DNA of 34,745 nucleotides from a virus: positions 1-34,745 of IMG/VR virus record IMGVR_UViG_3300022200_000178. One strand, 5' to 3'. A program made the translations under genes and the position numbers. This document shows positions 1 through 34,698 of this stretch, piece by piece. Each line of letters opens with the position of its first letter. The stretch's first letter is position 1. Under the pieces are notes generated by a model that was not told the origin of the DNA, did no database searches, and worked only from the letters and a program-made list of their open reading frames with translations.

Positions 1-177
1 AACTTTAATTTGGACTTGGCTCCCGGTGAGTACGTAGAGATGATATGGTCGTCTGATAATATAGACGCCGCTCTTAACTCCGAAACCGCAACTAGCCCCC
101 ATCCGGGGGTTGCTTCTGCTGTAGTAACTATTAACTTTATTTCGGCGCTACCTGAAACGCGCCCAACACCTCCGTAG
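1..177 (+). CDS. 3' end of a virion/tail protein (partial)
   Basis: The reading frame is open from the first base and ends with TAG at 175-177, giving 58 residues of a C-terminus that begins outside the window. The segment contains GEYVEMIWSS, then a hydrophobic stretch around SAVVTINFIS, and ends in a Pro/Thr-rich tail. Alternating beta-type residues like these are common in the C-terminal domains of phage decoration, fibre or neck proteins. No family can be named from 58 residues. It ends 8 bases before the next start, in the same direction as the virion genes that follow, so it belongs to the same structural operon. That it is coding is fairly secure. Its role is inferred from position only. 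Confidence 0.7.
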   Translation, partial: NFNLDLAPGEYVEMIWSSDNIDAALNSETATSPHPGVASAVVTINFISALPETRPTPP

Positions 178-185
178 GTGGGATT

Positions 186-1652: not shown

Positions 1653-1654
1653 CG

Positions 1655-2980
1655 ATGTCTTGGTTTACAAATTTACTTAAAGATCGTTATACCACCGTAA
1701 GTAGCGGTGTTGGCCCTACTCAACCAAGACTTGACTTGGGGAACATAGCCAAAGATATAGGTGTTGCTGGCGCCCTTTACGGCATAATAAACCCTAATGA
1801 TTCCAGTGGGTTAGCTAATTTCTTTGGTACTGGCGGTCGCCAGCAGCCGGTAGGGTACACAGGCGGAATACCTAACTACACTGCTACTAGAGAGCTAGCC
1901 CCTAATGCTTTTGCACAAACTTATACTACCCCTACTGGAGAGCTTGCACCCCGTCGTCCCGGTGCTGCGGGCCGTAGATACTTTACGGATACTGCGTTTA
2001 CTCAATCTACTACTACTCCTTTTATGGGTATTACGGCAGAGCAAATAGCCGCTCAAAACCAAGCTGCTCAAGAAGAACGAGACCTTTTTGAAACCCTTTT
2101 AGGTTCGGCAGCAACCCAACGAGAAACACAGGCGGCGGAACAAGCGGCGGCTCAACAATTAGCTGCTCAACAATTAGCTGCTCAACAATTAGCTGCTCAA
2201 CAATTAGCTGCTCAACAATTAGCTGCTCAACAAGCGGCGGCAGCGGCAGCGGCAGCGGCAGCGGCGGCCCAACAAGCAACTACGGGTACAACCGGCACAG
2301 CAACTACGGGTACAACCGGCACGCAACCTACTACCCGACAGCGTTTTACTGAGATTTTAGACACACAAATAGACGCCTCGGACGGCCTTGATATGGGTGA
2401 GCAACAACTAATTGCGGATTCCATTACCGAAGGTGCGTTTGGTATAGACGAAATAGCGCAGCGTTACGGCGCGCAGCCTATAGATGTAGTAGAAGGATTG
2501 TTACGCGGCGGTTTCCAAACACCAGAAGAAATAGTGGGTCTGTACGACACTGCTGGTTTTGACGAGCCTATGCTTGTAGCTACTTTGCTAGAACAAGGCA
2601 AAACTACACCAGAAGAAGTCGCTGCGTACTACAAAGACCATCCTGTATACGGCGGTATTACACCAGAGCAAGTAATCCAAGAGTTCCGTAAGCGTGGCGG
2701 CACCCGATTTGCCCGAGGCGGTAACATAAATGGCTACTACTTAGGCGGCCCCACAGATGGTATGGCAGACCAAATTCCTGCTACAATCAACAACATAGAG
2801 CCTGCCCGGCTTAGCGATGGGGAGTTTGTAATACCCGCCGATGTCGTAAGTCATCTAGGTAACGGCAATTCAGATGCAGGGGCACAAAACCTGTACAGCA
2901 TGATGGAAAGGGTGCGCCGAGACCGCACCGGCAACCCCAAACAGGGCAAGCAAATTGACCCTAACAAATACTTAGCGTAG
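1655..2980 (+). CDS. repeat-rich structural protein with Gly-rich C-terminal domain
   Basis: This gene encodes 441 residues. An N-terminal region of ~150 residues is followed by five AQQLA pentapeptides, a run of about a dozen alanines and a Thr/Gly linker. A helical domain (about residues 230-350) has several repeats of the type 'TPEEV/ITPEQV'. The C-terminus carries RFARGGNINGYYLGGPTDGM and then LSDGEFVIPADVVSHLGNG. I have the impression that this C-terminal pattern is common in uncultured marine phage structural genes, but no function is known to me. The gene starts two bases after the previous stop (TAACGATG) and is followed by the next gene 10 bases later, so the virion genes are probably co-translated. 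A minor virion or tail-assembly protein is the best guess. Confidence 0.75.
   Translation: MSWFTNLLKDRYTTVSSGVGPTQPRLDLGNIAKDIGVAGALYGIINPNDSSGLANFFGTGGRQQPVGYTGGIPNYTATRELAPNAFAQTYTTPTGELAPRRPGAAGRRYFTDTAFTQSTTTPFMGITAEQIAAQNQAAQEERDLFETLLGSAATQRETQAAEQAAAQQLAAQQLAAQQLAAQQLAAQQLAAQQAAAAAAAAAAAAQQATTGTTGTATTGTTGTQPTTRQRFTEILDTQIDASDGLDMGEQQLIADSITEGAFGIDEIAQRYGAQPIDVVEGLLRGGFQTPEEIVGLYDTAGFDEPMLVATLLEQGKTTPEEVAAYYKDHPVYGGITPEQVIQEFRKRGGTRFARGGNINGYYLGGPTDGMADQIPATINNIEPARLSDGEFVIPADVVSHLGNGNSDAGAQNLYSMMERVRRDRTGNPKQGKQIDPNKYLA
2150..2224 (+). repeat. 15-bp tandem repeat, five units, inside a CDS
   Basis: The unit GCTCAACAATTAGCT starts at 2150, 2165, 2180, 2195 and 2210, with a partial sixth unit at 2225. 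Each unit is identical and encodes AQQLA. It runs into a GCG/GCA alanine-codon tract (to about 2270). Perfect identity between units implies very recent expansion. Confidence 0.95.
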
Positions 2981-2990
2981 GTAAAAGACA

Positions 2991-3791
2991 ATGGCTGATA
3001 CTAATACAATGCGGGCAGAAGAGTCCTCGTTATCCAGTTGGGCTGGCCCTTATGTAACCGAGATGCTGGGTCGAGGCCAAGCGCTGGCGGGGTTGCCATA
3101 TCAAGCATATATGGGTCCTTTGACCGCCGGTCCATCTGAGCTACAAACCCAAGCTTTTCAAGGACTTGGTGCGCTTAATATACCTACTGCGGCGCAAACT
3201 ACCTACGACCCCGCTTCTTTTACTGCGGCGGGTGCGGCTCAACAGTACATGTCCCCCTACCTACAAGCCGCGCTTGAACCCCAGATTGCAGAGGCCCAAC
3301 GCCAAGCAGAAATACAACGGGTGCAAACTGCAAGTAGGCTGGGCAGGGCGGGTGCTTACGGTGGTGGGCGCCAAGCTATTATGGAAGCGGAAGGACAGCG
3401 CAACCTTCTTAGAAATCTTGCCGATATTACAGGCAGAGGTTACCAGACTGCGTTTGAACAAGCCCAGCAGCAATTTAACGCAGAACAAGCCCGTCAAATG
3501 GCGGCAGCAGGACAGGCTCAACGCTACGGCTTAGACGTATTAGGTGCGCAACGTACGGGTGGTGAGCTACAAAGAGCAATCGAGCAGCAGGGTATTGGAG
3601 CGGACATCGCACAGTTCGAGCAGGAGCGAGACTACCCATATAAGCAAGTCCAGTTTATGCAGTCATTGCTACAGGGGCTACCGCTTGAAACTCAAAGCTA
3701 TACGTACTACGAGCCTAGTGGTCTGCAAAGTTTAGCGGCTGGTGGAAGGGACATACTGAGCATACTCGACCTGCTGTCTGGTAGAGCATAG
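2991..3791 (+). CDS. Ala/Gln-rich virion or ejection protein
   Basis: This gene encodes 266 residues. The N-terminus contains SSWAGPYVTEMLGRGQAL and YQAYMGPLTAGPSELQTQAF. The middle is strongly helical and rich in Ala, Gln, Glu and Arg (about residues 85-215), with a Gly-rich turn (GRAGAYGGGRQA) between helices. The C-terminus ends in a short hydrophobic helix (DILSILDLLSG). The helical, Gln-rich composition and the position before two larger coiled-coil genes resemble the small internal or ejected proteins of podoviruses. This is an analogy, not a homology call. A start at 2991 is supported by its position 10 bases after the preceding stop. Confidence 0.7.
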   Translation: MADTNTMRAEESSLSSWAGPYVTEMLGRGQALAGLPYQAYMGPLTAGPSELQTQAFQGLGALNIPTAAQTTYDPASFTAAGAAQQYMSPYLQAALEPQIAEAQRQAEIQRVQTASRLGRAGAYGGGRQAIMEAEGQRNLLRNLADITGRGYQTAFEQAQQQFNAEQARQMAAAGQAQRYGLDVLGAQRTGGELQRAIEQQGIGADIAQFEQERDYPYKQVQFMQSLLQGLPLETQSYTYYEPSGLQSLAAGGRDILSILDLLSGRA

Positions 3792-3800
3792 GAGCATAAA

Positions 3801-5741
3801 ATGAACGGATTACAATCTTTAATGCAAGGTGCCCCTACACAGCCACAACCTACTCAAGCACCTGCTATGCCAGCACAAAACAATCCGCAAATGGCTGCGG
3901 CTATGGATGTAGTGGACAACGATCTGGATAAATTAAATCTCGATCCGCGCACCAAAGCGCTACTTAAGACACAGGAAGCTTTTGATCTTGTGCAGTCTGC
4001 GCAACGTGAACTGGCTATGAGCCAGCCGCAGCCTATGCCTCCTACTATTGAAGGTCAGCGCCAAATGCAAACAATGGAAGGAATTGCTGGAATACTACAA
4101 AGCCTACGCCCCGGTATGCAACAGCGTGGGCAACAAGTACAGCGTGCACAGGCACGTCAAATGATGGGTGGAGGGATTCCTGCTATGGCTGCCCCTAATA
4201 TGGCTCGTATGGCCGATGGTGGTATTGTTGGGTATCAAGAAGGCGGCCTTCTGAGTAAGCTACGAGAAGTAGACACTAGATTAAACGCCGCTGCGGATGC
4301 AGCTCAAAACGAGCGTATGGCACGTGGCCGCCGTTTGAGTGACTACAATGTCCTATCGAAGCCCTATGATGCGGCTATGAACATTATGTATGACACCGGT
4401 ATAGCAGGTGCATTGCAAAAGCTTACTGGCTACGAAAGCCAACTTAATAAGCCAGAAGAAAAAGACCCGATGGCTGAGCAGTTAAAGCGGTTCATGGAGC
4501 TTCAAGACCTATACAAAGCCCGCAAGGCAGCCGGTGCGGAGCAAGAAGAACTCCGTCGCATAGAACAAGAACTTCGATCTTATAGCGATATGGTACGCAA
4601 CATCGAGGCAGATGCTGCCCGTGCCCGTGCTGGTATGGCTATGGGCGGTCAGGTAAAAGGTTATGCAGAAGGCGATCTAGTTGAAAGTTATGATTATTTT
4701 AGCGACCCTAATCTTTATGTACCTACCGAAGTAGAACAGCCAGATGAAGCTATTCTTCGTTTTGCAAGAGAGCGAATGGGGCGAGACCCTGAAGCTGAAG
4801 CTCTTGCGGCAGGGCAAAGATTAAGAGAGCTAACTGGCGCTGAAGATTTAATGAAGCGGCGAGAAGAAGCAACAGCTAAGCTCGAAGCGCAGCGTGCCTC
4901 TAGATTTAGTCCTGAGATGGAACGTAGGCGTTTGCTACGTCAGGGGCTTGCAGGGTTAGCAGAAAAAGGACTAGGTGGTTTTGGTGCAGGTTATACGGCT
5001 GAAGAAGAAAGAATTGCGGGTGAAAAACTCTCCGCTGCGGAAGCCTCTGTTGCCGACATGGATAAGCTAATTGGTGAGTTACGCGATCTTGGCTTAAGTC
5101 AGTTTGAAGCTGAAAAACAAGCGCGTGATATGGTAGAAAGGGGTGTAGACCAAGGTTTATCTACCGCACAAGCAGTTCTAGCTTCTAGGCGCCAAGCAGA
5201 AACAGCCCTTGCCGATAGAGAAAGCAGGGAGCGTGTTGCGGAAATGCAAACAGCCGCTACTCTTGAATCAGCGCGTAGACCCACGGACTTTATGAATGAA
5301 ATAAATATCCGAGTAGACGCGCTGCAAGAGGCTGACCCCAGTTTGTCTGACATAGATGCTAGACGGCAAGCGCTTGAAGAACGAATTGAAGCGCAAACTA
5401 TGGCACAGTTAGCATTGTCAGGTATACGTGAAGAGTCATTAGAACTGGAAAGATTAAAAGCTGCGTATGCTGCGGCAGCGGACAAGCTAGCGCGTAGAGT
5501 TGACTTAATGTCCAATTCAGAAGCTTATAACAAGGCATTTGCCGAGGAAGTTCAGAAAATTTTACAAGACCTTGGAGGCTCGGCTGCGCCAACTGGAGCT
5601 GGGACTGGAGCTGGAGTAAATATTAGCGGCATAAACCCAAGGGCTATTCAAAGACTTAGAGATAACCCAACTGCGCAGAATAGAGCATTTTTTGACCAAG
5701 CATTTGGGGCAGGTAGTGCAGCGGCGGTTTTAGGCCAATAA
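3801..5741 (+). CDS. coiled-coil internal virion protein
   Basis: This gene encodes 646 residues. The first ~125 residues are rich in Pro, Gln and Met. Two Gly-rich segments follow, ARMADGGIVGYQEGGL near residue 135 and AMGGQVKGYAEGDLVE near residue 280. Long charged helices typical of coiled coils fill about 150-275 and 310-570. The C-terminus is a Gly-rich linker and a short domain. The next gene, for the giant protein, starts 10 bases downstream. The long helical structure and the pairing with a >2000-residue partner suggest an internal or ejected protein, as in podovirus ejection complexes. I know no specific family name for it. Confidence 0.7.
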   Translation: MNGLQSLMQGAPTQPQPTQAPAMPAQNNPQMAAAMDVVDNDLDKLNLDPRTKALLKTQEAFDLVQSAQRELAMSQPQPMPPTIEGQRQMQTMEGIAGILQSLRPGMQQRGQQVQRAQARQMMGGGIPAMAAPNMARMADGGIVGYQEGGLLSKLREVDTRLNAAADAAQNERMARGRRLSDYNVLSKPYDAAMNIMYDTGIAGALQKLTGYESQLNKPEEKDPMAEQLKRFMELQDLYKARKAAGAEQEELRRIEQELRSYSDMVRNIEADAARARAGMAMGGQVKGYAEGDLVESYDYFSDPNLYVPTEVEQPDEAILRFARERMGRDPEAEALAAGQRLRELTGAEDLMKRREEATAKLEAQRASRFSPEMERRRLLRQGLAGLAEKGLGGFGAGYTAEEERIAGEKLSAAEASVADMDKLIGELRDLGLSQFEAEKQARDMVERGVDQGLSTAQAVLASRRQAETALADRESRERVAEMQTAATLESARRPTDFMNEINIRVDALQEADPSLSDIDARRQALEERIEAQTMAQLALSGIREESLELERLKAAYAAAADKLARRVDLMSNSEAYNKAFAEEVQKILQDLGGSAAPTGAGTGAGVNISGINPRAIQRLRDNPTAQNRAFFDQAFGAGSAAAVLGQ

Positions 5742-5751
5742 GGGGCTACTA

Positions 5752-8700
5752 ATGGCGGAGCAAAATTTAAGGGAAGAAAATCCTTTCCTACAATATGTGA
5801 CGCCCGTTGCGGGCGATCTGGGTCTTACACAAGAGGACAACCCGTTTTTACAATACGTAGAACCCGCCGCCGAAGACAATCCGTTTTCACAGTATGTAGA
5901 AACCCCTGCGCCCGTCACTCCTGCGCCTGAACCTATTGCACCACAAGAAGTAGAATCAAATATATTCCGTGAAGCAGCGGATATTCCTTTGCAATTAGCG
6001 GGCGGTATTACTACTGGTGTTAAGATAGTCACTGACATATTTGGTGCGGACAATCCCGTATCGCGGTCTTTGGAAGGTGTCGAAGGGTATATAGATAGCC
6101 TATTATCTGCACAAGCAAAAGCCGATCAGCAAGAAGTCGCAAGGATAATGGCGGAAGCTGAAGACAAAGGGCTTGGTGCTAATGTCAATGCCGCTCTGCG
6201 TGCGCTAGCTACTTCTCCATTAGATTTCATTGCCCAAGGTGTGGGCACAGTTATACCCGCCGCCGCTGCCGCTATTCTTGGTGGTGGAGCAGGTGTAGTT
6301 ACGTATGGTATTGCTTCAGGCGTTGGTCTAATTAAGGGCGCTATATACGACGCTGTTAACGAAGAGATGCTGAAGCAAGGACTACCTGAAGCAGAAGCAG
6401 ACCGTATAGCAGATGCAGCACAAGCCTATACCGGTGATAACATAGACATGCTTGCCCTAGGTGGCGCACTGGGTTTCTTATCTAGTAGATTCGGTGTGCC
6501 CGAAGCATTCTTGAAAGGCAAAATAGGCCAAAAGCTCCTTGAATCTGGCGTCGAGAAAGGCGTTGCTAGAAGAATTGCGGAAGTGGCAGGGCGAGAAGCA
6601 GCGCCAGAAGCATTGCAAGCGGCGCAAGAAAGGTTTGCTCAAAACTTAGCATTACAACGTGAAGGTGTAGATGTTCCGCTTGGTCGTGGAGTAGCCGGAC
6701 AGGCTATATTGGAAGGCGCTATCGGTAGCATTATCGGTGGTGGTGTAGGTGCAGTTGAAGCGCGTGCTGCGGATACTATGCGTGCCGATCAGCGCGCTGG
6801 AAAAGTTCCAGAATGGGCGCCTGTCATACGGTCTCTAGCAAGGGCTGACCTAGCAAAACCTGAAGAAGAATTGTTTGCCCGACAAGAAGAAATACGTGCT
6901 CGATTTGGTGAAGACGCAGCTAACAACTATGCTCGTGTGCTAAATGGGCAAGAGATGGTGTTTGCGCAAGAAGAGGAAGTATTGCTGGGGCCGGGACAAA
7001 TAGAACCCGAAGCTGCGCCTGAAGCTGCGCCTGAAGCTGAGCCAGAATGGCTACCTGCTGTTAATGAAGAAATAGCAAAAGATTTAGGCAAATCTGAAGA
7101 AGAAATTGCTACAAAAATTGGCAAGATTTACGCTGACTATGGTCAACTGGCTGCTGCAACCTATGCTCGGGGTATACAAGGTATCCAAGGCACAGAGATG
7201 ATAGTACCCGCAGTGGCGGAAGAAGGACCCGTTGCTCCTATGCAGCGCGAAGAAATTCAAGCCGAAGCTGCACTTATGGCTGAGCGTGAGGCTGAGCAGG
7301 AGTCTATACAGGAAGCGACTAGTGAATGGCTTAACGAGCTAGAGCAGGAACAAGACGAAACTATACCTACAGAAGCTGAAGAAGATTTAGAGTTCCAAGA
7401 AGCAATAGAAGAAGCTTCAAAAACCACTGCTGGTATACAGCTAGGTACAATAACTGAAGAAGAGCTGGGGGACGAAGCAGTAGCACCTACTCTTGGTGAG
7501 CTTACCGAAGAAGAGCTAGGCACCTTGGGGGTAGACCCAGAAATAGGTGACATCAGTCAAGCAGAACAAGCACCTGCTGCCATTGAAGGCGAAACGCAAG
7601 AAGTTGCTGGCGTAAAAGCAGAGACTACGCAGCCCGTAGAAATACAAGAACAAACTTCGTTTTTAGAGCAGGAAGAAACCACTGCTAAGACTCGCGGACG
7701 CCCATCTTTAAAGCGCAAAACAGAAGTTCAGCAAAATCTAGATCGCATGCGAAAAGCGCAGGATAACCAGCGCAATGCTCAAAATCGTGCGTCTCAGAAG
7801 CTAACTACAACGCTAGAAACTGGTGAGCAAAAAATCCTAAAGAAAAAGCAATACGCTTCTTTATTCCCAACGATGGAAGAGTTTACTGCGTACGCAGAGA
7901 ACCCCCAAGATGCCTACGATACCGAGGTAAAAGGGCTTACTTTGTCTTACGCGTTAGAAGGCCTACCACAAGATCGAGCGCAACAGAAGGCGCAGCGGGA
8001 AGCAAACAAAAAGCAAACTGCGTTTAACCAGATAAACGACGAACTGCGCGCACTTTCAGTTAGGCGCGTAGAACAGCTAGCGGACGTTATAAACATAGCG
8101 GGTAACAAAAAACTAGAGGGTAAAGCTGCCCATACAGCAGCGGTAGAAGCACTACAAGACCCAAGAATTACCCCCGATGAGCTAGAACGTGCGAAGCAGT
8201 TGGCGAAAACCAAGAAGCCAAAAGAGCCTGCCGGAGCCATACCAGTACAAGAACTGAGAAAAGGTGACTTTGAGCCTCTTACTACTAGAGAAACTATCGA
8301 AGCCCCAATCGACGCGGCTGCTACTGCGGAACAAGCGGCAGATATTCTGATTAACGACACAACTCGCACTCCGTTTGAACGTGGGCTTGCACGTTTGTTG
8401 CGCCCTATACTTAGGCAAATAGGCACTGAGTTTGTAACCATCACAGACCTAAGCCAAGTGCCAGATAGCGTTCTGGAGTACTGGATAGACGAGGATGGGA
8501 ATCAGATTGCGGCTGGTATATATGAACCCGAAGAAAACGTTATTTACATTGACTCGGTTGAAGGACTAGACCCGAGGACCATCTTGCATGAAATGATTCA
8601 TGCGGTGAGCCTTAATGTCATAGACGCGGTTCAAAACGATATTGAAGTGTCTGCTGATGCAACGGCGGCTGTTAAAGAACTAGAACTGCTTATGGAGCGC

Positions 8701-11700
8701 GTTGCGCAACAGTACCAAACTCTTCTAGAAACAGGGCGTAATACACCGGAGCTAGACACGTACGCAGAAAGCACTGCTAACTTTACGAACATAAAAGAGT
8801 TTATTACTTACGGACTGACTGGCCCGTCGCTGCAAAGAATGCTGTTAAACATGGCGCCGGTAGCTAACCCACAGCTTGGCACTATACGCACAGCCTTCTC
8901 TAATTTTGCGGACTCAATCCGCCGTTTGATTGGTTTCCCATCCAGAGACCGCAGTGCTTTTGAGGAACTGATTGACCTGACAGGGCGCATAGCTATTGAG
9001 AATGTGCGACAAGCGCCTAAGCGCGCAAGTGAGGTTGTGCAGGCCAAGAAGAAAGTACAAGAACAAAATAAAGTGTTGATAGCTCAAGCCAAACAGACCA
9101 CGCTTCGTAACTTTATGAAGAAGAGCAACAAGCTTGTGGAACTTACTAGAGACCCCAAAGAAGGACTAAAACAGTTCCTAGCTTTTGCAAAAGAAATGAA
9201 CCCTGTTACTTTTGAGAACATGCTCTATGCTCTTACTAATAACATGGTTACAAGACTAGCAGACGATTACAAGGTCGCTGCGGTACGCAAAGTTAATGCG
9301 ATAATAGCTAACATTCATGGCTATAGAAATAGAAAGCTAAAAGCTATTAAACCCAATCTGGATAAATGGGAAAACTTAATCTTTAAAAACAGAAAAACAG
9401 CAGAGCTGCTAGAAGACTCGATTAATCTTAGCTCTTTGTTTGAAGTAGTTCTTTATGATTTAGATAGCGGTAAGTATTTATCTCAAGGGCAATCGCTAAG
9501 ACAAGACAGCCAACTAAATGATTTAAAGTTTGAGTTGCAGGAATTGTCTAAAAACCCTAGCCCTAGCACAGAAGAACAGCGTAAGATGAACCGTTTAGCT
9601 GAGGAGATAAGAAAACGTGAAAAAGAGATAGGAACAGTCTTTGATCTCTTTAATGAAATGCGCAGGGGCAAGGGCGGTTCCGCAGCTTCCGAACTTTACG
9701 CTTGGACTATGCAGGAATACCGTAACGACTTAGATGAGCACAACAGGTTGCTACTTGAGTCTATAAGAAAGGACCCAACGCTTCCCGGTACTGAGTCAGA
9801 TACTGCTTCGCCTAAAGGTAAACTGCTAGCAGAAATAACAGCGGCTTATCAAGAAGCTAGAAAAAGAAAAGTCTATGCGCCGTTAATGCGTTACGGAAAA
9901 TACGCCATGCGCGCCGTTGTGGGTAAGAGGACTCAAGCTTTTTATATGTTCGAGTCTAAGAGACAACGCGATGCTTTCGCAAAAGCTTACAAAAAAGATT
10001 TCCCGTTCCAGCAAGTAATACCTGAAGATATAGAAGATTACAACGCTAGTATGAGAGAACAAATGCTTGGGGATAGCGCCAAGCTGCGCGATATGTTTGC
10101 CTCTATAGACCAGCTAAAGCAGGGCAACCGAGACGCTGCGGAAGAATTAAAAGACAACATATACCAGATGTACCTGCTTTCTCTGCCAGAAGGCAATATG
10201 CGCAAAATGTATCTGCGCAGAAAAGGTAGATCAGGCTTCAACAATGATGCCTATCGCAATCTAGTGTCCACCAAACTTAGCAGCATTAACCAGCTAGCAA
10301 GAATTAAATACGGAAAGGATATAAGAAACGCGCTAAGTCAAGGTGAAGCTGCGCTTGAAGGACAGCCTTTTGAGCTTGAAATACAGGAAAATGCAAAACT
10401 AAGGGGCGAAATTCCTAGAGAAAAGAAACAAGCACTGCTTAATGTTACGCGAGAAAGAGCTACTACAGAACTTACGCCTCCTAGAAAAACCGGAGGAGAC
10501 GCTGTGGCGGATCGCGCTTCTCGTTTAGGCACCAAAGCGGCGTTTATGTGGCTTATGTCTTCCATTCGCTCAGCCGTTATACAGCCACTGCAACTCGCTT
10601 CTTTTGGGTTTGGCACCCTGCATGCTGAATATGGTGCAAAGAAAACGGCGGCTATGGCTGGAAAGTACATAAAAAACTTCTTAACTATGAAGGCGTTAAG
10701 TAGGCAAGAGTTTTCAGAGGACGGCGAGGTTTTAGACACCAAAGGTGAACCAGCAATACGCAACTCTGCTTACGTAACTAATAGCAAAATAAAAAACCAA
10801 TTACAAAAAGCTTTTGATGCGGCGGAAGAAAGAAATGCCTTTGGTGGCCGTATATATGACGTAATGGGTAGAGCTTCGCAAGAACAGGCGGAAATAAGAA
10901 CCACCGCTGGCGCAGAAGACCTAACTTTAAACAAAGGAAAGCGGTTTGCGGAAGGCGTTTTAACCGGAGCAGTGCACCACTTAGAGCGTATTTCGCGCGA
11001 AGTGTTCTTTATGTCGGCCTTCGAACTTGCTTATGAGGACGCATTGCGGCGTGGGGCTACCGGTGATTTAGCCGTAGAAGCGGCTATAGAGAAAGCACTC
11101 GGGCTTACAAACAACGCAATGTTTGACTACTCTACTTACAACAAACCCCTTATAGCTAAAAATCCATTAGGGCGGATGGCATACCAATTCCAAAACTATA
11201 GGGTGCAAGCGACTGGGTACATAGTTCAAAACTTCCAGCAAGCCTTCACTGCTTCTGGGCTTACCAAAGAAGAAAAGAAACAAGCAGCTATACGCTTCTA
11301 CGACATGCTTGGTATGGGTTTAGTTACAGGCGGAGCTACTGGAGCGTTAGGTTATACAGCATTAGTAGCAGTCATAGACGGCGTTCGAGAATTTTTACGC
11401 CCAGACTACGACGATGAAGACGCAGATATATTCTATGATATGGCAAACCCAAATAACCCAATAGGTTTGCGCAGTACGGATTTGTACATACGAGGGAGTG
11501 TAATTCCAAGATACTTTGGGGCTGGTAGTAGTTTTGCCAAACAGTTTGGGTTAGAAGACGAAACAGCAGACTTTATAGCTGAGGCTATAGAAGTAGGTCC
11601 TATATCCGCTCTGACCGATTGGAACTTCCAACCTTCGTTAGCATTAGATGGTTTATGGTTCTCTTCTTATGGAGAAGAGCCAGACAAATGGGGAGAAGTT

Positions 11701-12360
11701 GTTCAGCAGTTTTTATTTGGCATATTCGGTCCTTTTGGAAGTGTGATTACGGATGCAGCGGATGGAACGCAGCTAATTTACGAAGGGGAAGTACTCCGAG
11801 GCATGGAAAAAATACTGCCCGGATTGCTAAGAGAGCCTGTAGAAGCATACCGTTATACTCAGGAAGGTTACATAACTCCCGGTGGAGACGAAGTTGTTGG
11901 TCCTGAATATTACAATACTTGGCGTGTTATAGGCCAAATGATTGGAGCCGGTTCTACAGACTTAGCCACTGCTCAGAGAGCTGCGTACGGTGCCAACCAA
12001 ATGACTAAAACTGACCCAGCAGAAAACAAGCTAGAGATTTATGAAAACTTTGAAAAAGCCATAAAAGATAGAGAGCGAGCCGTCAAGAACTATGGTGCGG
12101 GCAGTAAGCAAGCCGAGGAAGCTCTGGCTAAGATGGAAGAGATACTGCAAGAAGACATAGCGCGCCACAATTACATGTATTTCTTTGACCCAATTACGCC
12201 AGACTCGCTGACTGATTCTATGAGAGAGCGGTTACGTCGAGATGGGATAACGGTGTCTGGGTTCTACTTGGGGGATAAGGTAGCTCCGTTTGCCTACCCA
12301 GTAATCAAAGATATGTTGCTGGAGCCGCTGCCTTCAGAAGTAAAGAACGGACAGGACTAG
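5752..12360 (+). CDS. giant internal virion protein with HExxH metallopeptidase motif
   Basis: This gene encodes 2202 residues, by far the largest product in the window. The N-terminus has three short copies of NPFLQYV/NPFSQYV (residues 10-16, 30-36, 43-49). Residues ~150-200 form a hydrophobic Ala/Gly-rich stretch (IPAAAAAILGGGAGVVTYGI). A long acidic region covers ~380-630, and basic helices follow. Residues 946-950 are HEMIH within ILHEMIHAVSLN, a zincin-type HExxH motif. The C-terminal third has helical domains, a second hydrophobic Gly/Ala stretch near 1850-1880 and the NPLGRMAYQFQNYRVQATGY segment typical of large phage polyvalent proteins. It is probably carried in the capsid and delivered with DNA, the metallopeptidase acting on the host envelope or proteins. 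That role is inference. It ends exactly where the opposite-strand block ends. Confidence 0.8.
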   Translation: MAEQNLREENPFLQYVTPVAGDLGLTQEDNPFLQYVEPAAEDNPFSQYVETPAPVTPAPEPIAPQEVESNIFREAADIPLQLAGGITTGVKIVTDIFGADNPVSRSLEGVEGYIDSLLSAQAKADQQEVARIMAEAEDKGLGANVNAALRALATSPLDFIAQGVGTVIPAAAAAILGGGAGVVTYGIASGVGLIKGAIYDAVNEEMLKQGLPEAEADRIADAAQAYTGDNIDMLALGGALGFLSSRFGVPEAFLKGKIGQKLLESGVEKGVARRIAEVAGREAAPEALQAAQERFAQNLALQREGVDVPLGRGVAGQAILEGAIGSIIGGGVGAVEARAADTMRADQRAGKVPEWAPVIRSLARADLAKPEEELFARQEEIRARFGEDAANNYARVLNGQEMVFAQEEEVLLGPGQIEPEAAPEAAPEAEPEWLPAVNEEIAKDLGKSEEEIATKIGKIYADYGQLAAATYARGIQGIQGTEMIVPAVAEEGPVAPMQREEIQAEAALMAEREAEQESIQEATSEWLNELEQEQDETIPTEAEEDLEFQEAIEEASKTTAGIQLGTITEEELGDEAVAPTLGELTEEELGTLGVDPEIGDISQAEQAPAAIEGETQEVAGVKAETTQPVEIQEQTSFLEQEETTAKTRGRPSLKRKTEVQQNLDRMRKAQDNQRNAQNRASQKLTTTLETGEQKILKKKQYASLFPTMEEFTAYAENPQDAYDTEVKGLTLSYALEGLPQDRAQQKAQREANKKQTAFNQINDELRALSVRRVEQLADVINIAGNKKLEGKAAHTAAVEALQDPRITPDELERAKQLAKTKKPKEPAGAIPVQELRKGDFEPLTTRETIEAPIDAAATAEQAADILINDTTRTPFERGLARLLRPILRQIGTEFVTITDLSQVPDSVLEYWIDEDGNQIAAGIYEPEENVIYIDSVEGLDPRTILHEMIHAVSLNVIDAVQNDIEVSADATAAVKELELLMERVAQQYQTLLETGRNTPELDTYAESTANFTNIKEFITYGLTGPSLQRMLLNMAPVANPQLGTIRTAFSNFADSIRRLIGFPSRDRSAFEELIDLTGRIAIENVRQAPKRASEVVQAKKKVQEQNKVLIAQAKQTTLRNFMKKSNKLVELTRDPKEGLKQFLAFAKEMNPVTFENMLYALTNNMVTRLADDYKVAAVRKVNAIIANIHGYRNRKLKAIKPNLDKWENLIFKNRKTAELLEDSINLSSLFEVVLYDLDSGKYLSQGQSLRQDSQLNDLKFELQELSKNPSPSTEEQRKMNRLAEEIRKREKEIGTVFDLFNEMRRGKGGSAASELYAWTMQEYRNDLDEHNRLLLESIRKDPTLPGTESDTASPKGKLLAEITAAYQEARKRKVYAPLMRYGKYAMRAVVGKRTQAFYMFESKRQRDAFAKAYKKDFPFQQVIPEDIEDYNASMREQMLGDSAKLRDMFASIDQLKQGNRDAAEELKDNIYQMYLLSLPEGNMRKMYLRRKGRSGFNNDAYRNLVSTKLSSINQLARIKYGKDIRNALSQGEAALEGQPFELEIQENAKLRGEIPREKKQALLNVTRERATTELTPPRKTGGDAVADRASRLGTKAAFMWLMSSIRSAVIQPLQLASFGFGTLHAEYGAKKTAAMAGKYIKNFLTMKALSRQEFSEDGEVLDTKGEPAIRNSAYVTNSKIKNQLQKAFDAAEERNAFGGRIYDVMGRASQEQAEIRTTAGAEDLTLNKGKRFAEGVLTGAVHHLERISREVFFMSAFELAYEDALRRGATGDLAVEAAIEKALGLTNNAMFDYSTYNKPLIAKNPLGRMAYQFQNYRVQATGYIVQNFQQAFTASGLTKEEKKQAAIRFYDMLGMGLVTGGATGALGYTALVAVIDGVREFLRPDYDDEDADIFYDMANPNNPIGLRSTDLYIRGSVIPRYFGAGSSFAKQFGLEDETADFIAEAIEVGPISALTDWNFQPSLALDGLWFSSYGEEPDKWGEVVQQFLFGIFGPFGSVITDAADGTQLIYEGEVLRGMEKILPGLLREPVEAYRYTQEGYITPGGDEVVGPEYYNTWRVIGQMIGAGSTDLATAQRAAYGANQMTKTDPAENKLEIYENFEKAIKDRERAVKNYGAGSKQAEEALAKMEEILQEDIARHNYMYFFDPITPDSLTDSMRERLRRDGITVSGFYLGDKVAPFAYPVIKDMLLEPLPSEVKNGQD

Positions 12361-12555
12361 TTAAACTCTCCATACCCGAATACCGCGCACCCCGTCTTCA
12401 ATGACAACCTTAGTTACGACTTTGTATTTAAGGCGGTGCACGGTTTCGAGTATGTATTTACTAGATTTGCGTGGGTTCAGGCAGGGTATAAAGAAAGAAT
12501 ACCCCACCTTAAATTTGGTCCAATCAATCTGATACTGCACCTTCTCCACTTTCAT
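12361..12555 (-). CDS. small conserved-looking hypothetical protein
   Basis: This gene encodes 64 residues rich in Lys, Val and Tyr, alternating hydrophobic and basic residues (KYKVVTKVVIEDGVRGIRVWRV), which suggests a compact beta-rich fold. It is the last gene of the leftward block. Its start overlaps the 3' end of the primase-helicase gene by 32 bases, behind a purine-rich stretch (AGAGAAAAAAG) that can act as a ribosome binding site. Its stop codon abuts the stop of the giant virion gene on the other strand. No family is recognised. Confidence 0.6.
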   Translation of the reverse strand: MKVEKVQYQIDWTKFKVGYSFFIPCLNPRKSSKYILETVHRLKYKVVTKVVIEDGVRGIRVWRV

Positions 12556-15502
12556 CTTTTTTCTCTGGCATAACCAAGTTTTCTATGTCGAAGAACTCGC
12601 TGTTTGAGCAGTCAAGTACCATACAACGGACAGCCAAACCTACATCAATATCCATGCCTTTTGCTAACCGCTTGTTTTTAGTAGTTACAAAGACGCCTTT
12701 CTGCTTTAGTTCTTTGATTGTTTCGTTCTTTGCCGTTTGGTACTTGACGCAATCTTGGTTAAAGTGCCCTACTTTTATAAACATGAGTTTAGTATCAGGC
12801 TCGTAGCGTATAACTAGCTCGCCTTTTGGCTCCCGTATTGGGGAGGAAGGTAAGTGGCTTCGGTTATCTACGCCGTCTTCGACTACCAAGATATTGTTGT
12901 TATGCCTGTACACGTAATCTGCAATTGTTGCGCTTGCGTTACTCAAAGGGGCTTTAGTTTCTAGGCTCATTTGCCCTACTTCTTCGACAACTTTTTCATA
13001 CAGAGTGCCTAAGTCCCATGTTTTTGGTTTACCTGCGTCGTCCCCATCTTCTATAAGTTCCGCTTTTCCTTCTTTATTAGTTATTTGTAGCAGCCCTACG
13101 TTACTAGCGACCAATCCCGCTGTTATGTTTACAGCTACAGCCGCCGACCAAATACGTTCTCTAGAGCTAAATTTAAGTTTCTTGTCTATCTTTGCCTGTA
13201 CCCTAAGTAGGGTTTCTAAGACTTCATCTTTGTTGGCAATTATATATTGTATAAAAGGTTCTATAGCATGCCCGTAATTATTGTTGAGCACGTGGTCAAA
13301 TATTTCCTTGCCTTCTTCTACAGAAATAATATTTTGGTCTGTATAATCAATTTGGAACTCTAACAGCCGCATCATTTCCCCGTCAGCCACTGCCTTGGCA
13401 GAGCTAGACTTATCGTAGAAAGATGCGTTCGCTGAGGTGAGTGTGGGGGTGTTCCACGTAGTGTCGTTTATGCGCAGCTTGTTTGCATCTCGTTCACTTT
13501 TGTCCTTACCTTTACCTTGTGAGTAAGCGTAGGCTAGCTCAGAAAAATCATCTGCGTCGGTGTTGGTTATTTCGTCCACCGTATTAACTATGTTGTTAAG
13601 TATGCCTATCTTAGTAATCTTAGCTACTTTTGTGTCGTCTACAGTACCAAGTAATCTTTCTGGGTGCCCACATATACTATTTGCCATACGTAAGATTGTA
13701 GTTTTACCCGTACCTGCGTAGCGGTGCACGAAGTTTATGATTACTCCTTTCTGTCCAGTGTACTTCAAAAGAACTGAGCCAAAGCCAGTCAGCGCACCAA
13801 ACGCTTGTAGCTCCATACCCTCCCTACCATACAAACCAAAGGCTTTTTTCCATTCTTCTAAAGTACCTGCTGGTTCAAAGTAAGGAGCCAAAGATTGCGT
13901 TATCGAAGACGGCGGGCTGTAGTAAACCCCGTCTACTGTTATCTCTCTATCCCCAACAATGAACTTAGTATCATTGTCAGCCCAACCAAATTGTTTTCTC
14001 ATAACGTCCGCCTTTTTTAAAGTTTGCAGCGCCTTAATAGCGCGTATTACGTATGCAGTTATCTTTTTAAACTGCGCCTCATCAGCCATAACCCCATGTT
14101 TTGAAAGCTCTTTTTTGACTTCGATGTTCTGAGTTATCTTGATGTTAGAAATAAAAAATATCTTTACTCCGTCTTTAGGAGTGTGTAACCGCAGAACAGT
14201 AGTGTCCCCTTCTGCTGGGTCGTTCATTCTTTTTATTACGAACAGGTCGTGCTCGTAGACAAGCTTAGGGCCTCTCTCATCATCATTGGGGTCTAGGTAG
14301 TAAATACCACCGTGCTTACCCCTTGCGTAATTGTCAGGCAAGAATGGCTTTAGGTTAAGCAGATCACGGTCTAGGTATTCGTCCTCTACCTCTTCCACTT
14401 CCACTTCCACTTCTGGTTCAGGAGCTACCTGTTCCGCGTCTTCATCTTCGTCAAATTCAACTAGTTCTTTACCCAAACTAATTGGATTGGTTATCCGTCC
14501 TTTATGGGGGCAACCATCGCACCCACCGGGGTTGGTACGCTCAAACACTGCACAGGAGTGTGGCCCTTCTATGTGCTCGACTTTCTCTTCCACTTTCTCC
14601 CGATTGTAATCAGGGTGCCCTTCAGACAGTATGTGGATAGCCGTGTCTCGGTCATAACAGTGCGCAGCTACAGATAGCGCATCGAACCATCTAGGCTCGG
14701 ACAACGTTGCCCTATTGACATAACAGTCCAATAGCTGCTGACATCCGGTATTACCTGCGCTTCGCTTCATTATCTTAGCAAAGCTACTTTGGACGTTCTC
14801 CTGTAGTTTCCCCATTAACATAGATTTTCTACGCGGGGCACTTGCGTCTAACGCCACAGTCTCTTTAACCCCCAAAATATCCTTAAGCTCATCAAAGTTT
14901 ATTTCGGGAGCCGTAGTAATTACACTTACGGGCTTAGGTGGATCGTCTTTATAATTCAAGGTACCCGGGACTCTAAGCACCCGAGCCGATTCAAAGACAG
15001 AGGGGTCTACATAAAACTCTTGTTTATCGCAAAGCTGACGAAGCCTAGAAGCCACTGGTTTCCATTCTTCTTTAGTAACTGCCCTATCTAGCGCCCAGTA
15101 CACGTGTAGCCCGCGCCCTGAATTAACTAGTGTAGGTTGGGGCAAGCCCACGGTTTCACAGAACTCCCGTAGTTTTTTAGCTCCGGCTGCTTGATCTATG
15201 TAGCCGTCTGGGCGTCCTGTCTTTTCATTTACTTCAGCTTTCTTTTCTCCGCAATCTATGTCTAACCATATCGCCTTGAGGGCTTGTACATTAACCTGCG
15301 TACGTCCTTTGTCTGGGTCTTTAAACTTGGCGACCGCGAAATAAACATCCTGCTTTTTAGCCAAATACTTATCTACTAGGTTTTGTGCTTCTTCCCTAGT
15401 GGCTACAAGCTCAGTTCCTGCAAAATCCCCTGACTCCAACGCTAGCACGCAGTAGTACCCACCTTCGGGTAGCACGTACTCAAGTAAGTCAAAGTTGTCC
15501 AT
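12524..15502 (-). CDS. fused AEP primase-polymerase and helicase
   Basis: This gene encodes 992 residues. Residues ~1-210 match an archaeo-eukaryotic-type primase (PrimPol). The metal-binding aspartates lie in WLDIDCGE (D81, D83). The nucleotide-binding histidine lies in SGRGLHVYW (H133), followed by ARVLRVPGTLNYK. A Cys/His cluster near residues 315-335 (SCAVF to CDGCPHKG) may bind zinc or Fe-S. An acidic linker follows, then a helicase domain with Walker A GTGKTT (K600), an acidic motif NTVDEIT and TLTSANASF, as in DUF927/VapE-like phage helicases. The protein would unwind the fork and prime synthesis for the phage polymerase. It is preceded by the HTH gene with a three-base gap. The C-terminal ~150 residues are less clear. 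Confidence 0.85.
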   Translation of the reverse strand: MDNFDLLEYVLPEGGYYCVLALESGDFAGTELVATREEAQNLVDKYLAKKQDVYFAVAKFKDPDKGRTQVNVQALKAIWLDIDCGEKKAEVNEKTGRPDGYIDQAAGAKKLREFCETVGLPQPTLVNSGRGLHVYWALDRAVTKEEWKPVASRLRQLCDKQEFYVDPSVFESARVLRVPGTLNYKDDPPKPVSVITTAPEINFDELKDILGVKETVALDASAPRRKSMLMGKLQENVQSSFAKIMKRSAGNTGCQQLLDCYVNRATLSEPRWFDALSVAAHCYDRDTAIHILSEGHPDYNREKVEEKVEHIEGPHSCAVFERTNPGGCDGCPHKGRITNPISLGKELVEFDEDEDAEQVAPEPEVEVEVEEVEDEYLDRDLLNLKPFLPDNYARGKHGGIYYLDPNDDERGPKLVYEHDLFVIKRMNDPAEGDTTVLRLHTPKDGVKIFFISNIKITQNIEVKKELSKHGVMADEAQFKKITAYVIRAIKALQTLKKADVMRKQFGWADNDTKFIVGDREITVDGVYYSPPSSITQSLAPYFEPAGTLEEWKKAFGLYGREGMELQAFGALTGFGSVLLKYTGQKGVIINFVHRYAGTGKTTILRMANSICGHPERLLGTVDDTKVAKITKIGILNNIVNTVDEITNTDADDFSELAYAYSQGKGKDKSERDANKLRINDTTWNTPTLTSANASFYDKSSSAKAVADGEMMRLLEFQIDYTDQNIISVEEGKEIFDHVLNNNYGHAIEPFIQYIIANKDEVLETLLRVQAKIDKKLKFSSRERIWSAAVAVNITAGLVASNVGLLQITNKEGKAELIEDGDDAGKPKTWDLGTLYEKVVEEVGQMSLETKAPLSNASATIADYVYRHNNNILVVEDGVDNRSHLPSSPIREPKGELVIRYEPDTKLMFIKVGHFNQDCVKYQTAKNETIKELKQKGVFVTTKNKRLAKGMDIDVGLAVRCMVLDCSNSEFFDIENLVMPEKKDESGEGAVSD

Positions 15503-15505: not shown

Positions 15506-15739
15506 CTAGCGCTCTAACTGCGTTATTAATTTTTCTATTTTGCTAGCCATCTGCTCAGAAGGCCTGCTCTTGCCAGAAAACCAGTGGTAGATTGTTTGTC
15601 TGCTGACGCCTAGGCGCTCAGCTACGTCCGCAACGGGTACACCATGTTTGATGCACGTGCGTCCTAGCTTCACGCCTATAGAGCGAGCACTGGCAGACTT
15701 ATTGAGCGAGACTAGATTTAACGTATAGCCATAGCTCAT
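15506..15739 (-). CDS. small XRE/Cro-type HTH DNA-binding protein
   Basis: This gene encodes 77 residues from the ATG at 15739, preferred because it overlaps the upstream stop as TAATG and has AGGA at a good distance. A longer frame begins six codons earlier. Residues ~32-72 form a helix-turn-helix: VPVADVAERLGVSRQTIYHWFSGKSRPSEQM, in which the recognition helix would be SRQTIYHWF. This is the usual layout of XRE/Cro-type regulators. It sits between the putative ssDNA-binding protein and the primase-helicase. It may therefore control replication genes or recognise the origin. It is one of three candidates in the window for a regulator that binds the dispersed palindrome or the iterons. Confidence 0.8.
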   Translation of the reverse strand: MSYGYTLNLVSLNKSASARSIGVKLGRTCIKHGVPVADVAERLGVSRQTIYHWFSGKSRPSEQMASKIEKLITQLER

Positions 15740-16647
15740 TAGTCGTCCTTGCTCCATGCGTCAATTACAGAGGCTAAAGAATCAGAGTCTTCAGTGGGAG
15801 TATGCTCTTCTTTCTTCTTAGTGCGCTTTACTGGCTCTTCTACTTCTTCCACCAGTTCCACTTCTTCAGGCTCCTCAGAACGAGTTACCTTTGGCTTTGG
15901 GGCTTCTATCCTAGGTGCTTTAGTTACGCCGTCTGTCTGAGCCACAGTGATCTGAGTGTACATCTTAGCTTCAGCTGCAGTTTGTACGCTGCTAACTAAG
16001 TCGTATTCTTCGTCAGTCAATGAGCGCACAGGCGTAAACAATAGCTCCATGGAGTCAGCATCTAGATCGTAACTAATATTAGTTATAACAGTATCAGGCG
16101 CTTCACGGTTGCTGAATAAGTATTTAATATAGCTTTCAAACGGATGCTCGTTGCCAGAACCCTTACCAAACAAAGACTTAGCGGGGATATTGAACTGGTA
16201 AAGGTCGCCCGACGTGTCTCCGGCTAACAGGATAGCTATACGACGTTGGTATCTACAGGCTTTACCGCCGTTGTCACCAGAGCCTTTGACATTCATAGGG
16301 CAGTCAGCGCAGTTGCTATGCTGCGGGTCGGGTGCACCGGCTTCAGGCTTGTCGCCTTGGTTAGACCAACAATTGGGTAGGGTCGCTTCCTTGGTAGGGT
16401 CAAACTTATCCTTGTAATAGATACGAGAGACTTTGGGTAGCATATTAACAATGATCGCTTCAAACTCATCACGGATAGGCTCGCCCACTTGCTCACCGTT
16501 AATGATCTTTCGGAAGAAGCCCTTGTTACTTGTTTGAATACGGCGGCTGTATATAGTTGAACTGGCTTTAAGCTGCTCAGCTAGGGCACTGTGGCGGCGC
16601 GTAGATACGCCTGTTTGGTTCTTAAATATAGATACTTCGTTGCTCAT
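15739..16647 (-). CDS. putative ssDNA-binding replication protein (Cys4, acidic tail)
   Basis: This gene encodes 302 residues. Four cysteines at 93, 113, 116 and 131 (PNCWS, SNCADCP, KACRYQRR) form a likely zinc site in the centre. The sequence after them (RRIAILLAGDTSGDLYQFNIP) looks like an OB-type beta barrel. The last ~60 residues are a disordered tail of alternating Glu and Lys clusters ending in a hydrophobic-acidic peptide (VIDAWSKDD), as in many single-strand-binding proteins. It lies between the helicase/polymerase genes and the primase. A role coating single-stranded DNA or loading replication factors is therefore a reasonable inference. I cannot name the family with certainty. AGGAG precedes the ATG. 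Confidence 0.6.
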   Translation of the reverse strand: MSNEVSIFKNQTGVSTRRHSALAEQLKASSTIYSRRIQTSNKGFFRKIINGEQVGEPIRDEFEAIIVNMLPKVSRIYYKDKFDPTKEATLPNCWSNQGDKPEAGAPDPQHSNCADCPMNVKGSGDNGGKACRYQRRIAILLAGDTSGDLYQFNIPAKSLFGKGSGNEHPFESYIKYLFSNREAPDTVITNISYDLDADSMELLFTPVRSLTDEEYDLVSSVQTAAEAKMYTQITVAQTDGVTKAPRIEAPKPKVTRSEEPEEVELVEEVEEPVKRTKKKEEHTPTEDSDSLASVIDAWSKDD

Positions 16648-32128: not shown

Positions 32129-32338
32129 CTACCTAACAGTTGTTAGGTTATGTGCATCGGGTCGGGGTTGCTTCTTGATTGCAGCCAGTGTCTCCTCGGC
32201 TTTCTCAAGGTTGGCTATGGCTTGTGCCACATTGTTACGCCTAGATATTAGACGCGCATCAAAGTACGGGGCTTGGTCTTTCAGCTCCGCATCTATGTAC
32301 TCAAGCATTGAGCGTAGGTCTTCCATCGTGTATTCCAT
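32129..32338 (-). CDS. small helical protein whose end is encoded by the palindrome
   Basis: This gene encodes 69 residues behind AAGGGG, mostly charged helix (DLRSMLEYIDAELKDQ, ISRRNNVAQAIANLEKAEE). The last codons (NLTTVR and part of the stop region) are written by palindrome copy 5. This shows the site can sit on coding sequence. No family is recognised. Confidence 0.6.
   Translation of the reverse strand: MEYTMEDLRSMLEYIDAELKDQAPYFDARLISRRNNVAQAIANLEKAEETLAAIKKQPRPDAHNLTTVR
32131..32148. repeat. dispersed palindrome, copy 5 (AGTT centre)
   Basis: ACCTAACAGTTGTTAGGT: arms intact, centre AGTT instead of AATT. It overlaps the last codons of the 69-residue gene and lies 47 bases before the ATG at 32083. 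Confidence 0.95.
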
Positions 32339-32739: not shown

Positions 32740-32757
32740 ACCTAACAATTGTTAGGT
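32740..32757. repeat. dispersed palindrome, copy 6
   Basis: Perfect copy ending 12 bases upstream of the ATG at 32727, directly before its AAGGAG. Confidence 0.95.
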
Positions 32758-33020: not shown

Positions 33021-33043
33021 ATAGTCTCCTTGGTGTGAATGTA

Positions 33044-33061
33044 ACCTAACAATTGTTAGGT
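33044..33061. repeat. dispersed palindrome, copy 7
   Basis: Perfect copy 23 bases upstream of the ATG at 33020, in the leader between it and the promoter candidate at 33123. Confidence 0.95.
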
Positions 33062-33122
33062 GCTGTGGACGGGTCGAAAAACCCGAAACGTGATAAAAAC
33101 CAAAAATAACAGAAAAAAGAAC

Positions 33123-33151
33123 ATTGTACCACATTGTTACGTGAATTTCAA
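33123..33151 (-). promoter_or_regulatory. leftward early promoter candidate
   Basis: Leftward reading gives TTGAAA (33146-33151), exactly 17 bases, then TACAAT (33123-33128), preceded by TGG to give an extended -10. A GTTACG site lies in the spacer and the TGTGGTACA motif overlaps the -10, so proteins binding either would control it. It would drive the genes from 33020 leftward. Confidence 0.6.
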
Positions 33152-33597
33152 GCTGAGTGGGGACGCTCGCGCCAAAGAGTAATGTTACGAAAATGGGGTA
33201 ATGTTACGAAAAACGGTGTAATGTTACGAGGCGTTTCACAATGTGGTACAGAGCTGAAGCCAGTAATGACGCGGGCTGTGGGGGAGTGTTAAGTGTATTG
33301 TTATATTGTTATGGGTTTTTAGGAAAATCAAAGGTTCCATCGGATTGTTTTGCTCATTGCACGAGAGACTCTCTTGCTCTCTAATTTGTCTCAGATTGAT
33401 TTTTTTCACGTAACATTCGTAACATTACCTTTTCTACTGCAAAAACAACGACTTAGCTCGTAACAATACCATTTTCATTTCGTAACAATCGTCACAGTGT
33501 GGTACATCGTTACGTTTAACTCCTTCCGTCCCCTTAGTTACTATCATGAGCACCAAATTTTGTTTTAGGCTTGCTGGGAATCGAAACGTAACATTAC
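33133..33597. repeat. ten GTTACG iteron-like sites in opposed arrays
   Basis: Rightward copies: 33133-33141 (ATTGTTACG), 33181-33189, 33200-33208 and 33220-33228 (AATGTTACG), and 33506-33514 (ATCGTTACG). Leftward copies: 33409-33417, 33418-33426, 33459-33467, 33481-33489 and 33587-33595. The three AATGTTACG copies are spaced 19-20 bases apart, close to two helical turns. Opposed clusters flank a 180-bp segment. Confidence 0.8.
33521..33551 (+). repeat. 31-bp direct repeat, copy A
   Basis: It begins TCCTTCCGTC, contains TTAGTTACTATC and ends ATGAGC. It differs from copy B at one position. TACTAT (33539-33544), 17 bases after TTAACT (33516-33521), could be a weak rightward promoter. The palindrome lies 73 bases downstream. 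Confidence 0.9.
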
Positions 33598-33624
33598 TAC
33601 AGCTAGGCACTTAGCCACAAGATT

Positions 33625-33642
33625 ACCTAACAGTTGTTAGGT
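33625..33642. repeat. dispersed palindrome, copy 8 (AGTT centre)
   Basis: ACCTAACAGTTGTTAGGT inside the control region between the two 31-bp repeats. Same centre as copy 5. Confidence 0.95.
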
Positions 33643-33689
33643 TATGAGCACGAAATGGGTACGCGGTGCAGGTCAGACGGTGACTTAAG

Positions 33690-33720
33690 TCCTTCCGTTC
33701 CCTTAGTTACTATCATGAGC
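33690..33720 (+). repeat. 31-bp direct repeat, copy B
   Basis: It begins TCCTTCCGTT and ends ATGAGC, 169 bases after copy A. TACTAT (33708-33713) follows TTAAGT (33685-33690) by 17 bases, the same geometry as copy A. The palindrome starts 35 bases downstream. A short frame opened by its ATG is not considered a gene. Confidence 0.9.
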
Positions 33721-33755
33721 CCCGCTTCTCGTTCGCACCCTATTGGCTGGGCACT

Positions 33756-33773
33756 ACCTAACAATTGTTAGGT
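33756..33773. repeat. dispersed palindrome, copy 9
   Basis: Perfect copy 36 bases after direct repeat B and upstream of the rightward 239-residue gene. Confidence 0.95.
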
Positions 33774-33887
33774 GCTGAATTATCACCGGACAGAAAAAGT
33801 TGAAAATGTGGTACATTTGATAAAATGGCTTCGCCAGTCAAAACTAATCAGCGCCGCCGTGACTGGGTAGCGGCACGGAGATTCACA

Positions 33888-34607
33888 ATGGAAAATTTCA
33901 CCCTTACCTCAGACTTGAACCTCGACAACGTAGTTGCGCTTTCAGACCGCCTTGCCAAACTGGACAAGAGCGCAGACCAGAATCAGCTTGCCGAGGCAAT
34001 AGGCAATGCGACACTGGTACAAATTGCAGCAGTAAGCAATCATGGCGAGCGCATATCAGGCAGCGCCGAGCGCGCCGTAGCAGCTTGGTTGAATGTCGCC
34101 TTGCCAGTAACATTAGGCGCGCAATGGTACGCTGTAGAGTATCGGGAAAAGTCAGACATCGCGAAGGCACTGGCACCACACAAGAAGGACATTTTTGCCG
34201 CATGGAGCAGCAGCAACCCCAGCACCAAGTGGTCGCGAGTCCGCGACTACGGCGAAGAACTGGCAGAGCCCGCAATGCGCGAACTTGTGGACGCAATCGA
34301 GGACGAAGCCGAGCGCGAGCAGCTAGCGGTATATTACGGACTCGACCAGACCGAGGAAACCGGGGAGACCGAAGCCGAAAGCAGTAATAGCCGCAATCGT
34401 GACTTATACGAGCGCAGCGTAGTAGAGACAGGCAAACTATACCGCGCACTGAATGCCAGTGAGAACGACGGGATAATTAAAGCACACCCCAAGTGTGTTC
34501 AGATTACCGCAGCACTGGAGTACTACACCAAAGCACTCGAGGCGTTGGGCGCGCCGCTTGAAGATGAGGACCTAGCCCAGTTTATGAAGGACGTCGCCAA
34601 GCGCTAA
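33888..34607 (+). CDS. unrecognised 239-residue protein beside the control region
   Basis: The ATG at 33888 is chosen over an in-frame ATG at 33825 because only the former has GGAG at eight bases. The product has helical segments (DNVVALSDRLAKLDKSADQ, ISGSAERAVAAWLNVALPV), an acidic hinge (GLDQTEETGETEAES) and a C-terminal helix pair. There is no HTH, nuclease or AAA motif that I recognise. Codon use looks more GC-rich than that of its neighbours. It is the only rightward gene between the control region and the window end, has its own terminator and is preceded by palindrome copy 9. A replication initiator, partition-type or repressor role would fit the location but is inference only. Confidence 0.75.
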   Translation: MENFTLTSDLNLDNVVALSDRLAKLDKSADQNQLAEAIGNATLVQIAAVSNHGERISGSAERAVAAWLNVALPVTLGAQWYAVEYREKSDIAKALAPHKKDIFAAWSSSNPSTKWSRVRDYGEELAEPAMRELVDAIEDEAEREQLAVYYGLDQTEETGETEAESSNSRNRDLYERSVVETGKLYRALNASENDGIIKAHPKCVQITAALEYYTKALEALGAPLEDEDLAQFMKDVAKR

Positions 34608-34680: not shown

Positions 34681-34698
34681 ACCTAACAATTGTTAGGT
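34681..34698. repeat. dispersed palindrome, copy 10
   Basis: Perfect copy beyond the terminator, upstream of whatever follows the window. The last ~45 bases are open in frames on both strands, but no gene can be called. Confidence 0.95.

Follow-up and report, generated by a model that had tools for sequence, protein, structure and literature searches.

The window, i.e., the whole stretch of DNA that was analysed, comprises 34,745 bases and is a linear fragment from IMG/VR (IMGVR_UViG_3300022200_000178, positions 1 to 34,745). The same virus is represented by IMGVR_UViG_3300022198_001102 (L012), which shows an identity of 99.97% with the window. The structural genes form a block on the + strand (1-12360), which meets a replication operon on the - strand (12361-33017) encoding a primase-helicase, an HTH_3 protein, an SNF2 helicase, a PD-(D/E)XK nuclease, PolA, and VWA and MoxR-type proteins. 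The virus is itself a tailed phage, as opposed to a satellite. Alignment searches of IMG/VR yielded at least 573 stretches encoding relatives of the primase and at least 592 encoding relatives of the terminase. These relatives are uncultured metagenomic contigs, all classed as linear by IMG/VR and termed 'near-complete' below on the basis of size and gene content. Annotated isolates gave only distant matches at the protein level, and an isolate with the same replication module was not found in the phage collection searched. The nearest annotated phages, Pseudomonas phage Rollin and Rhizobium phage RHph_TM3_14A, are without the repeat and the palindrome described below. DSL-LC04, 023Pt_psg01, HTVC023P and HTVC027P have the terminase/structural module in common with the window, with replication genes that differ as annotated.

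The starts led by a ribosome site that lie nearest to the array are at about 33017 (- strand) and 33888 (+ strand), and the stretch 33021-33887 between them is without a conserved ORF. Within 457 bp of it (33136-33592) the hexamer GTTACG occurs ten times in the orientation ++++ ---- + -. Four sites pointing right form the left set (33133-33229, + strand; cores at 33136, 33184, 33203 and 33223), and four sites pointing left form the right set (33408-33490, - strand; cores at 33409, 33418, 33459 and 33481). Two outlying sites follow, ATCGTTACG(T) (33506-33515, + strand; core at 33509), immediately 5' of the first putative rightward promoter, and AATGTTACG (33586-33595, - strand; core at 33587). 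Nine of the ten sites read A[A/T]TGTTACG, the exception being the one at 33509 (ATCGTTACG). GTTACG was observed 29 times in the whole window versus 16.5 times expected. When the window was simulated 400 times with a first-order Markov model, the richest 465-bp stretch never had more than five copies (mean 2.2), against the ten observed, and in 60 simulations considering any 6-mer there were never more than nine copies. The original prediction had described ten GTTACG-core sites in opposed orientation, three of them 19-20 bases apart, in a gene-free region of divergent transcription; every coordinate was confirmed, the spacings being 19 and 20 bases. A short specific repeat is thus present in multiple non-coding copies, as is looked for in an iteron origin. 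Matches to Rfam were at chance level only.

The opposed sets are separated by a central region (33230-33407), which holds the word GACGCGGG and a GAGAG...CTCTC inverted repeat. An AT-rich block of degenerate iterons, TATTGTTATATTGTTATG (33300-33317, + strand), is a candidate DNA-unwinding element. The 9-mer TTATATTGT or a variant with one mismatch was found in 16 of 19 central regions, compared with at most six in shuffles, and TTGTTATAATGTTATG or a close form is common in the array centres of relatives. Judged from sequence, this conserved TTGTTATAATGTTATG block would provide the AT-rich region next to the repeats that is typical of iteron origins. An AT-rich section and a hairpin had been predicted for the 180-bp gap (33229-33408): the AT-rich block and the inverted repeat are present, but the hairpin is not unusually stable, the gap as single-stranded DNA folding no better than shuffles (z +0.77).

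Array spacing was compared in relatives, a check named in the original prediction. In the closely related contig L033 all ten sites are present with identical spacings (48, 19, 20, 186, 9, 41, 22, 28 and 78), and 98 of the 99 iteron bases are unchanged, whereas other non-coding DNA is 80% identical (Fisher p 8e-8). The AT-rich block (15 of 16 marked bases unchanged), the leftward promoter and the palindromes are also kept. GTTACG arrays were found at the corresponding place in the more distant L008, L020, L032, L035, L041, L042, L043, L067 and L069. Seven large or near-complete relatives (G002, G014, G015, G024, G026, G027 and G028) were then considered that had been found without using the motif; their arrays were detected as the most clustered 7-mers with no motif assumed, the region being read where the scan was unclear. 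In all seven the array lies in or adjoins the gap that separates the terminase block from the start of the replication operon. The repeat itself differs between lineages, i.e., AATGTTACGA, AATGTTAGAA (G026), AATGTAAGAA (G027, iteron TGTAAG), AATATTAGAA (G028), AATGTAAAAA (G015) and TATTGTTGTAA (G014), with TGTAAG/TGTTAG in G024, a GTTAYG-like repeat in G002 and TGTAAG in L083. Repeats are thus kept at the corresponding place in relatives, as expected of an iteron origin under selection. Regarding orientation, 18 arrays together have 48 + and 18 - sites left of the centre, and 22 + and 66 - sites right of it (Fisher p 5e-9; this value is only indicative, given the relatedness of the rows and a centre placed at the largest gap); the convergent pattern is broken by some sites. 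In G022, which is more distantly related (DUF927, 34% identity) and whose wing differs, the same k-mer scan gave no array. In L015 (G001) short degenerate repeats (GCCGTAGCC/GCCGTTGCC) extend over a long stretch at the contig end (about 53.2-53.9 kb), next to the expected array place, and the assembly breaks there.

The best sigma-70-type promoter in the region by promoter scoring is P_L (33123-33151, - strand), the strong leftward promoter of the replication operon, which reads TTGAAA-N17-TACAAT with a TG-extended -10 (GTGGTACAAT) and has the iteron at 33136 in its spacer. In most relatives TTGAMN-N17-TAYAAT is found at the outer left edge of the array, and in G027 the P_L spacer contains CTTACA, the repeat of that lineage. 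The scattered word GTGGTACA is the extended -10 element rather than a second iteron. To the right lie two putative rightward promoters, P_R1 (33516-33544, + strand; TTAACT-N17-TACTAT, a weak match to the consensus) and, 169 bp downstream, a second copy from repeat family D2, P_R2 (33685-33713, + strand; TTAAGT-N17-TACTAT). Both are conserved in L033, though their promoter score is not above that of shuffled sequence, so that the role as promoters is tentative. They belong to a 39-bp direct repeat of 92% identity (33516-33554 and 33685-33723), ending in TTAGTTACTATCATGAGC, which possibly serves as a pair of promoters in tandem or marks where a small RNA begins. Shorter words akin to it, e.g., (A)CTATCAT, recur right of the array in several relatives.

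An iteron in the P_L spacer and another directly beside P_R1 would also fit a plain operator array. Transcription diverges at the array, and an HTH_3 protein of 83 aa (15506-15757) is encoded directly upstream of the primase gene in every relative examined. The main rival explanation is accordingly that the region is an operator only, in which a phage regulator at the GTTACG sites switches divergent promoters while replication starts elsewhere. We regard it as unlikely: the ten sites extend over 457 bp and are mostly away from the promoters, and the central AT-rich block and the convergent layout are conserved. The gene to the right of the array also bears on it. This gene encodes a conserved protein, g260 (33888-34607, + strand), which is all-helical according to its model and probably starts at 33888 and not at 33825; g260 showed no convincing fold match among the chains compared and no match to Pfam or PHROG. 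It points away from the array in the window, L032, L033 and L019, and towards it in L008, L020, L029, L041, L043, L042, L035 and L027. The array has thus kept its position while the neighbouring gene was inverted between clades, and is therefore not simply the promoter region of g260; in most relatives it persists where there is no divergent gene to control. G014 apparently has two copies of g260.

A separate element, the palindrome CCTAACAATTGTTAGG, looks like the actual operator, which also speaks against such a role for the GTTACG sites. In intergenic gaps of the window there are seven palindromes CCTAACA(A/G)TTGTTAGG, nearly identical to each other and perfect or almost so (26206-26221, 32132-32147, 32741-32756, 33045-33060, 33626-33641, 33757-33772 and 34682-34697), several of them just upstream of a ribosome site. 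They look like the operator of a genome-wide regulon. The palindrome or its odd-length form CTAACAnTGTTAG recurs across the phage family (15 copies in G024, 21 in G028), and in other lineages other repeated palindromes or none were detected. Whereas the HTH_3 protein has a strongly conserved recognition helix (RQTVYNWF), the palindrome is variable or absent, and a role of this protein as palindrome binder was therefore without support.

In relatives a few kb separate the array from the terminase genes, as might be expected of a packaging (pac) or terminase-recognition region. Headful pac sites are, however, usually located in or beside the small terminase gene; moreover, an iteron overlaps P_L, and the block that separates the array from terminase differs from clade to clade, also in orientation. 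This explanation is accordingly improbable. Iteron arrays are also typical of centromeres, and the array could in principle be the partition site of a plasmid-like prophage. Neither ParA (PF01656) nor ParB (PF02195) was matched in nine records (the window and eight relatives) in which the controls were positive, which makes an ordinary partition site very improbable. Opposed short sites flanking a central inverted repeat further resemble an attP with arm-type integrase sites on both sides of the core. In the same nine records, several of them near-complete and the window itself a fragment, no tyrosine or serine recombinase (PF00589, PF00239) was found, again with positive controls, and no clear prophage was seen in the genome collection; of the explanations considered, attP is the one to which we give the least credence.

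The proposed initiator is encoded in the replication operon (12524-15502, - strand) by a gene for a PrimPol-DUF927 primase-helicase of 992 aa, in which DUF927 was detected with Pfam (PF06048, E 2e-23). The only solved structure found by sequence was that of SCCmec Cch. An AlphaFold2 model (mean pLDDT 80.5, 41 sequences) was compared with known structures: residues 388-979 match Cch (5dgk) with Z 29.5 over 482 residues and SaPIbov1 Rep (8tch) with Z 26.9 over 458 residues, and residues 3-211 match the S-2L PrimPol with Z 19.0. The DUF927 MCM-like AAA+ helicase thus belongs with the SaPI Rep/SCCmec Cch family. Inside the aligned range a C-terminal DNA-binding domain is predicted by the model, a winged helix at residues 856-964 in the order helix (856-866), strand (898-910), two helices (911-920 and 925-935), strand (938-944), wing (944-957) and strand (958-964). 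The basic wing reads KRLAKGM in the window protein, and KR(L/M)SKGM is nearly invariant. In SaPI Rep the C-terminal domain recognises the iteron origin, and in Cch2 it binds repeats in the neighbouring intergenic region (PMC7581432); for the PrimPol PolpTN2, too, origin recognition by a C-terminal winged helix has been proposed (PMC5862659). On the strength of the model, the primase-helicase is likely to be the phage's own initiator, and it may bind the GTTACG sites.

Taken together, 33120-33600 is probably the replication origin of this phage lineage, with the primase-helicase as initiator. This reading is favoured because the arrays are conserved, the repeats at the corresponding place are lineage-specific, an iteron lies in P_L, the candidate initiator is of the Cch/SaPI-Rep type, and neither an integrase nor ParA or ParB was found in the nine records. 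Points against it are the distance of about 18 kb to the initiator gene, the sites breaking the convergent pattern, and the lack of an array in the scan of G022. The A[A/T]TGTTACG iterons would form two sets facing each other across the AT-rich unwinding block. The primase-helicase, with its PrimPol, its MCM-like DUF927 helicase and its C-terminal winged helix, would bind them and assemble on both sides, melt the AT-rich block and prime synthesis, so that two forks would leave the origin region. Replication would accordingly start at the array, and the initiator would also control P_L through the iteron in its spacer, i.e., the replication operon would be autoregulated. An origin whose initiator also controls the leftward promoter had been proposed in the original prediction, and it is upheld here as the best reading. 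Regarding GC skew, which had been suggested as a further check together with strand bias, the cumulative minimum of the window is at 32,746, and most relatives, though not G027, have theirs near the array. Skew at third codon positions is near zero and GC skew follows gene direction, so that it is uninformative as an origin marker here.

It is conceivable, if somewhat short of probable, that the origin code is specific to each lineage, the repeat (GTTACG, GTTAGA, GTAAGA, ATTAGA, GTAAAA or GTTGTA) changing in concert with the winged helix of the fused PrimPol-helicase, and that the same protein starts replication and represses the operon via the promoter iteron. Among eight genomes, the C-terminal domain of the primase did not clearly track iteron type. 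Residue 959 is R in the window, G002 and G014 and Y in the others (n = 8), which is confounded by descent and a hint at most.

Several known systems resemble the proposed replicon in part. In SaPIs an AT-rich region is flanked by two sets of repeats. SaPIbov1 Rep has, by comparison with the model, the same helicase and C-terminal domain fold, and the SaPI origin likewise has several short repeats, which Rep recognises through its C-terminal domain (PMC7581432). Unlike in SaPIs, which are satellites, the replicon here is that of a tailed phage, the primase is fused to the helicase, the operon promoter contains an iteron and the array is situated between divergent modules. The array (33.1-33.6 kb) is also about 18 kb away from the primase-helicase gene (12.5-15.5 kb) and not directly downstream of it as in the SaPI arrangement, and the two are far apart in relatives too. 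SCCmec Cch is the best fold match to the modelled primase-helicase, and the binding of intergenic repeats by the C-terminal domain of Cch2 (PMC7581432) is a further likeness; in SCCmec, however, primase/polymerase is separate, and Cch2 binds only a few direct repeats. Iteron plasmids differ in that their Rep is not a helicase, whereas the presumed phage initiator is itself helicase and primase. Iteron plasmid origins with Rep autoregulation nevertheless share the iterons and the AT-rich block, and there too the promoter of the replication genes is overlapped by a repeat. The alpha protein of phage P4 combines primase, helicase and iteron binding in one protein; its primase and helicase family and its iterons differ from those of the window. 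The fusion of initiator helicase and primase in P4 has been described (PMC7145576).

If the reading is true, a replication start and an initiator can be assigned to a tailed-phage lineage represented by hundreds of metagenomic contigs, and the SaPI/SCCmec class of self-loading initiator helicases is linked to free-living phages. The different natural repeats at one conserved place form a data set for the choice of DNA by winged-helix initiators.

A further repeat was noticed in self-matches of L012 versus the window: a leader of 33-41 bp with 97% identity is located directly 5' of three successive genes of the replication operon (28121-28161, 29633-29665 and 30733-30773).
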